DNA of 64,000 bases from Bacillota bacterium (lineage in GTDB: Bacteria > Bacillota > Sulfobacillia > JABLXB01). The translations under genes and the position numbers were made by a program. The notes beneath the pieces were generated by a model. It saw only the letters and a program-made list of their open reading frames with translations, was not told the origin of the DNA and ran no database searches. Shown one piece after another: positions 48,162-48,543 of this stretch. Location: NCBI GenBank assembly GCA_013178305.1, contig JABLXB010000009.1, positions 1-64,000 of the forward strand, in the 5' to 3' direction. How positions within the stretch are numbered: the stretch's first letter is position 1; each line of letters begins with the position of its first letter.

Positions 48162-48394
48162 TTATGCCTTCGCGCTGCTCGACTGCGGCAAGACGACGGG
48201 GCCGCGCGCGGCGCATCGAATACCGGATAGTCGATGAAGGGGAGCAGTAGGCCGGAGGCAACGACAAGAGAGCCCGCGGGTGGTGAGAGCGGGACGTTGA
48301 GCCGCCGAACTCGCCCCGGAGCAGCGAGGCGAAAGTATGAACGAGTAGCCGAGCCGTGGCGCGCGTTAAGCGAACGACAAGGGTAAGTTTGAGT

Positions 48395-48470
48395 GGGGCT
48401 GTAGCTCAGCTGGGAGAGCGCTTGAATGGCATTCAAGAGGTCGTGGGTTCGATCCCCATCAGCTCCACCA
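48395..48470 (+). tRNA. tRNA-Ala (anticodon GGC)
   Basis: A complete 76-base cloverleaf with CCA encoded. The acceptor stem GGGGCTG/CAGCTCC contains the G3:U70 pair that marks alanine tRNAs. The D arm is GCTCAGCTGGGAGAGC, the anticodon stem-loop is CTTGA-ATGGCAT-TCAAG with anticodon GGC, and the T arm is GTGGGTTCGATCCCCAT. The gene lies inside the leuS T-box leader, after the sensing stems and before the antiterminator. No separate promoter is evident, so it should be processed from the leader transcript. Confidence 0.95.
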
Positions 48471-48513
48471 CTTTATGAACGGCTTACCGAATGAGGGTGG
48501 TACCGCGAGAGAA

Positions 48514-48543
48514 GCCTCTCGCCCCTTGGGGCGGGGGGCTTTT
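48514..48543 (+). terminator. T-box regulated terminator
   Basis: GCCTCTCGCCCC (48514-48525), a two-base loop, GGGGCGGGGGGC (48528-48539) form 12 continuous pairs (two G-U) followed by TTTT. Its 5' arm contains the 3' strand of the antiterminator, so the two are mutually exclusive. Without uncharged tRNA-Leu, transcription would stop here, 70 bases after the tRNA gene. Confidence 0.92.

Follow-up and report, generated by a model that had tools for sequence, protein, structure and literature searches.

A tRNA-Ala(GGC) gene nested in stem III of leuS T-box leaders from several bacterial phyla

Introduction

T-boxes are among the best-studied RNA regulators, and a sub-architecture with a nested, sole-copy tRNA seems to have gone unremarked. 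A complete tRNA inside a T-box was predicted upstream of the leucyl-tRNA synthetase gene leuS in a 64,000-nucleotide stretch of a Bacillota genome (assembly GCA_013178305.1, contig JABLXB010000009.1, positions 1 to 64,000), here called the window. The locus raises the question of what a complete tRNA-Ala(GGC) does inside a leader expected to sense tRNA-Leu: whether it is a working gene, whether the arrangement recurs elsewhere, and whether the tRNA belongs to the switch or shares its transcript.

Results

Architecture of the leuS leader in the window

The features of the leader and its neighbouring genes are as follows (positions in the window, strand, feature).

47796–48161, + strand: rsfS, the upstream gene, its 3′ end overlapping the leader promoter (Pfam RsfS, 111.8 bits)
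48130–48158, + strand: leader promoter TTGACT-17 nt-TATAAT (11/12 matches to the sigma-70-like consensus)
48225–48529, + strand: T-box leader from stem I to antiterminator (Rfam RF00230, 82.2 bits, E 2.4e-18)
48310–48312, + strand: specifier CTC (Leu), read from the sequence; it matches tRNA-Leu(GAG), which has two genes in the window's genome
48382–48387, + strand: 5′ strand of stem III, GGTAAG, enclosing the tRNA (Rfam alignment, fold)
48395–48470, + strand: tRNA-Ala(GGC) with encoded CCA, G3:U70 and A73 (ARAGORN and Rfam RF00005)
48483–48488, + strand: 3′ strand of stem III, CTTACC (Rfam alignment, fold)
48493–48527, + strand: antiterminator (fold, −16.4 kcal/mol)
48494–48507, + strand: T-box motif AGGGTGGTACCGCG with the UGGU bulge, read from the sequence
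48511–48542, + strand: terminator hairpin of 14 bp with a short UUUU tract (fold, −25.6 kcal/mol)
48577–51102, + strand: leuS, leucyl-tRNA synthetase, TTG start (editing domain, 245 bits)

The RF00230 match spans the full model (1–219), and in the Rfam alignment the tRNA appears as an insertion within a stem III pair of the T-box model. Its score is below the Rfam curated cut-off of 93 bits, but it is typical of the 17 full-length T-boxes in the window's genome (G000), and one of the better of them, as these score 52–87 bits against this model. Because all 17 fall below the cut-off, standard annotation would miss them. The UGGU bulge is complementary to ACCA, in which the tRNA-Leu genes of this genome end. 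According to fold energies, antiterminator and terminator are mutually exclusive, one strand being common to both. In minimum-free-energy folding of the whole leader, the T-box fold did not stand out (z 0.10), and a generic terminator scan misses the terminator because its U-run is only UUUU. The leader promoter, with its 11 of 12 matches, is the sole sigma-70-like site in the interval 47900–48700; 0.0 ± 0.2 such sites are expected from shuffles.

The central claim of the original prediction, a complete tRNA-Ala(GGC) inside the leuS T-box, is thus borne out by the full-model RF00230 match and by the ARAGORN and Rfam tRNA calls; the T-box match (48225–48529) begins upstream of position 48395, where the tRNA match (48395–48470) starts. 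Promoter, specifier CTC and T-box motif all lie at the coordinates first claimed. The terminator and its UUUU run were also located correctly, but its helix comprises 14 bp (48511–48542) instead of the proposed 12. In the window, the stretch from stem I to the tRNA showed neither a promoter nor a terminator that would isolate the tRNA. With one promoter, and with the tRNA upstream of the terminator, the proposed double nature of the leader as T-box riboswitch and tRNA precursor is supported.

Elsewhere in the window, a match to group II intron domain V/VI was found at the left edge (56–127; Rfam, 45.7 bits). An ORF for a DUF1156/HmaB-like DNA methylase (52970–55171) gave weak PADLOC matches and is a possible defence or modification gene, and the ORF at 59317–61407 is sigma-54 activator-like, with a PspF/RtcR-type AAA region (PADLOC, 345 bits).

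Distribution across genomes

A DNA search of 60 relatives from the same class showed, in about twenty families, a leader ahead of leuS with the tRNA placed after stem I and before the T-box motif. For a broader survey, 84,980 species, each represented by one genome, were scanned with a pattern consisting of any tRNA T-arm followed by a T-box motif within 25–55 nt. At least 120 loci were obtained, and among the 120 matches listed the tRNA is tRNA-Ala(GGC) in 113. The leuS gene follows within 1.5 kb in 101 of these 113 listed loci, and three end too soon to tell. In the other nine, the T-box is followed by an acyl-CoA-ligase-like or branched-chain-aminotransferase-like gene, with leuS next where the locus is long enough. 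Every listed tRNA-Ala(GGC) locus that can be read far enough downstream therefore leads into a leuS operon.

The remaining listed matches include three without a tRNA (L095, L098 and L113), two with another tRNA (L175 and L206), and L172, which carries tRNA-Ala(CGC) in a leader without recognisable stem I; L105 is cut by a contig end. Apart from L172, no other tRNA and no other T-box gene was found in this arrangement among the matches listed. Chance was ruled out as a source of the pattern, with only six non-composites among the 120 listed matches in addition to the truncated L105. An assembly join was likewise ruled out by the same architecture in more than 100 other assemblies, some of them single-contig. 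The proposed comparison with related leuS leaders thus disclosed like architecture in more than 100 other genomes. The specifier is CTC in 103 of the 113 listed leaders as detected by regular expression, and in several more by eye.

By organism name, carriers among the listed matches belong to Bacillota, Chloroflexota and Thermomicrobiota, with a few Armatimonadota, Atribacterota and Coprothermobacterota. A few listed matches are labelled Actinomycetota and one Pseudomonadota; these are metagenome-assembled genomes, and the labels are used as given.

Prevalence was estimated with a composite covariance model comprised of stem III, tRNA and T-box. It gives a clean separation, with scores above about 120 bits for intact composites, 105–111 bits for degenerate or stretched ones, and no higher than 99 bits for tRNA-Ala genes elsewhere. 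In an even sample of the window's phylum, this model found the composite in 86 of 398 genomes; in Chloroflexota it did so in 44 of 350, so that about a fifth and an eighth of the sampled genomes, respectively, are carriers. Within the window's class, about 36 of 154 genomes exceed 105 bits. Model RF00230, which was built without knowledge of tRNA insertions, exceeds its curated cut-off in 15 of 18 sampled carrier loci, with the tRNA inside the match.

Some variants of the locus were also noted. In Desulfotomaculum-like Bacillota (L094, L101, L123, L141, L146, L156, L182 and L195), the leuS T-box is followed by an acyl-CoA-ligase-like gene and then by leuS. Many Chloroflexota (L091, L108, L124, L126, L139, L152, L153, L192, L208 and others) have a tRNA-Ala(CGC) gene on the 5′ side of stem I, 190–320 nt from the embedded tRNA, and in those genomes one leader may be common to both tRNA-Ala(CGC) and tRNA-Ala(GGC). 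In locus L074 (G027), the tRNA and the T-box motif are about 100 nt apart, with an extra hairpin-like insertion.

The stem III helix enclosing the tRNA

The helix around the tRNA covaries strongly, as assessed in 48 diverse sequences. Pairing is retained in 87.2% of cells, all six pairs show changes on both sides, and 60 double-change cells were counted versus 15.7 ± 5.3 in shuffles. Sliding the helix partner reduces pairing to 21–51%. A comparison of self- versus cross-duplex energy of stem III did not discriminate (22 of 108), the helix sequence being similar across species.

Sequences flanking the helix are regular as well. Of the 113 listed loci, 105 have AA five nucleotides before the T-box motif and 111 have [AG]AGxG on the 5′ side of the tRNA. 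The window itself departs from RRRxG in its 5′ stem III flank, and a G stands between the helix and AA. The distance from A73 to the T-box ranges from 14 to 43 nt across loci. Some leuS T-boxes from the same class have no tRNA, and their stem III is an ordinary plain hairpin at the equivalent place.

The embedded tRNA as a working gene

The cloverleaf was examined over 21 pairs in 48 sequences without a single broken cell, many of the pairings being kept through compensatory changes. Both G3:U70 and A73 are present in all 113 listed tRNA-Ala(GGC) sequences. CCA is encoded in 82 of these and absent from 31, and U precedes the tRNA at position −1 in 81 of the 113 loci; RNase P favours U at this position. 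All 45 tRNAs checked in the window's genome, including the embedded one, encode CCA.

The window's genome has a single tRNA-Ala(GGC) among its 46 tRNAs. A pattern specific for this tRNA detected exactly one gene in 51 of 56 carrier genomes, and the reversed pattern, used as a control, gave zero matches. The same specific pattern detected four tRNA-Ala(GGC) genes in a non-carrier genome (G023). In eight genes of the window, 51% of alanine codons are GCC or GCU. Judged by its cloverleaf, identity elements and sole-copy status, the embedded tRNA-Ala(GGC) is probably an essential, working gene.

Altered arrangements and origin

The two other genomes of the window's family, its nearest relatives G001 (L060/L247) and G002 (L072/L248), keep tRNA-Ala(GGC) and the terminator before leuS, while the T-box bulge has decayed. 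In G001 stem I is also gone; the G002 contig ends in the tRNA. As far as their sequences can be read, these loci amount to a naturally occurring riboswitch deletion. A T-box is lacking in two Chloroflexota genomes, where the tRNA immediately precedes leuS. In one further Chloroflexota genome (L294), the leuS T-box has an ordinary stem III and is preceded by tRNA-Ala(CGC) and tRNA-Ala(GGC) in tandem; the embedded state may have arisen from this arrangement or given rise to it.

The composite is widely scattered over a LeuS tree that over-samples carriers, where it requires 30 changes versus 50.7 in shuffles. That tRNA, gene and position are constant speaks for one old origin followed by many losses, or for transfer together with leuS.

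Discussion

We consider it likely that the leader serves two purposes, acting as a tRNA-Leu-sensing T-box attenuator of leuS and as the precursor of tRNA-Ala(GGC), with the tRNA forming the apex of stem III. In the proposed course of events, the leader promoter would be constantly active and each transcript would traverse stem I, tRNA and T-box. Only the later outcome, termination before leuS or read-through, would be set by leucine status. Because the tRNA follows the only promoter seen and precedes the terminator, every leader transcript should contain it. As originally proposed, it would thus be present in the terminated leader as well as in the full mRNA, releasable from either by RNase P and 3′ processing. 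Riboswitch function, maturation of the tRNA from the leader transcript, and cutting after the decision are what we infer from this organization. Stem III could house the tRNA because its apex varies freely in T-boxes, while the base helix and flanking purines are needed for charging sense. In the original prediction, RNase P/Z cutting would part sensor from switch after the decision; the conserved helix around the tRNA could keep both halves of the leader joined after tRNA excision. Transcripts from the upstream rsfS operon may reach the leader as well.

Retention of the tRNA and terminator after T-box decay in G001 and G002 speaks for this double role, as does the clustering of promoter-like sites upstream of stem I; the terminator tract of only UUUU in the window counts against it, as do possible transcription from the rsfS operon and the TATAAT-like hexamer of Ktedonobacteria, which may be a separate tRNA promoter in that group. 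Supply of tRNA-Ala(GGC) would be independent of the leucine decision. The original prediction had gone further and coupled tRNA-Ala supply to leuS control; such coupling is unsupported, since the tRNA would be made before the decision and survives loss of the T-box core in G001 and G002.

Another reading gives the embedded tRNA a role in the switch itself, with leuS control altered when the tRNA folds, is processed or is cleaved. Possible routes include giving time for tRNA-Leu binding, shaping stem III, or yielding a processed, more stable leuS mRNA. The combination of tRNA-Ala(GGC), leuS and stem III is invariant across several phyla, which is more constancy than a neutral insertion needs, and both the conserved enclosing helix and the U at −1, which favours RNase P cutting, fit such participation. 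We nevertheless regard it as unlikely, given that leuS T-boxes with an ordinary stem III and no tRNA exist in the same class, that relatives retain the tRNA after losing the T-box core, and that A73-to-T-box spacing varies from 14 to 43 nt. A particular version is conceivable but doubtful: the level or stability of leuS mRNA would depend on how the timing of tRNA-Ala maturation inside stem III, by RNase P and 3′ processing, compares with that of the T-box decision.

Promoter positions are informative about another alternative, in which the tRNA is an independent gene with its own promoter and overlaps the leader by happenstance. A TATAAT-like hexamer is present 14–49 nt 5′ of the tRNA in several Ktedonobacteria, and a TATAAT-like site 57 nt upstream of it in one other locus. 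The window lacks such a site, and in a histogram promoter-like sites are most frequent 150–240 nt 5′ of the tRNA, before stem I, making this explanation quite improbable. In the window, the ACCA encoded by the leader tRNA is complementary to the UGGU bulge, and pairing between them in cis might mimic an uncharged tRNA. This is very improbable, and as a general mechanism it was ruled out by the 31 of 113 listed embedded tRNAs in which CCA is not encoded. There is hardly any likelihood that the tRNA is a pseudogene or a tRNA-like structural domain serving solely as stem III: it does occupy the stem III position, but it is the sole tRNA-Ala(GGC) copy in 51 of 56 genomes, its cloverleaf is kept intact through compensatory changes, and G3:U70 and A73 are found in 113 of 113 listed sequences.

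The arrangement indicates that a riboswitch leader can double as a tRNA gene and that the stem III apex accommodates a functional RNA of 76 nt. It would represent a conserved meeting point of tRNA processing and transcription attenuation on one molecule, and it constrains the age of leuS T-box regulation. Were the tRNA an active part of the switch, its maturation and amino acid sensing would be physically linked in one RNA in several phyla. Cultured carriers, among them Syntrophomonas wolfei and Ktedonobacter, allow the arrangement to be tested directly.

Comparison with known systems

Term searches of the T-box database paper, a major review and genome-scale surveys revealed no tRNA gene within a T-box, and a full-text search, with Vitreschak 2008 and Gutierrez-Preciado 2009 outside its coverage, gave no mention of one. 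This is consistent with the initial statement that no example had been described. T-box and tRNA are each known, and it is their combination that appears undescribed.

The leader resembles the leuS class of T-boxes (RF00230) in having a stem I with the Leu specifier CTC, a UGGU bulge and an antiterminator/terminator pair before leuS, as well as, in most homologues, a stem III flanked by RRRxG and AA. Stem III of T-boxes has been described as a variable plain hairpin (PMC7583486, PMC7778990); unlike in those T-boxes, its apex here is a complete tRNA-Ala(GGC) gene.

Transfer RNA genes can be co-transcribed with mRNAs, as is the case for tRNA-tufB in E. coli. The locus studied here would be similar in yielding a tRNA from a transcript that bears a protein gene as well, and differs in that the tRNA lies within the regulatory fold of the leader, between sensor and switch. 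The tRNA itself is like other tRNA-Ala (RF00005) in its complete cloverleaf, G3:U70, A73, anticodon GGC and CCA, and unlike an ordinary tRNA-Ala gene in being flanked on both sides by the strands of one riboswitch helix.
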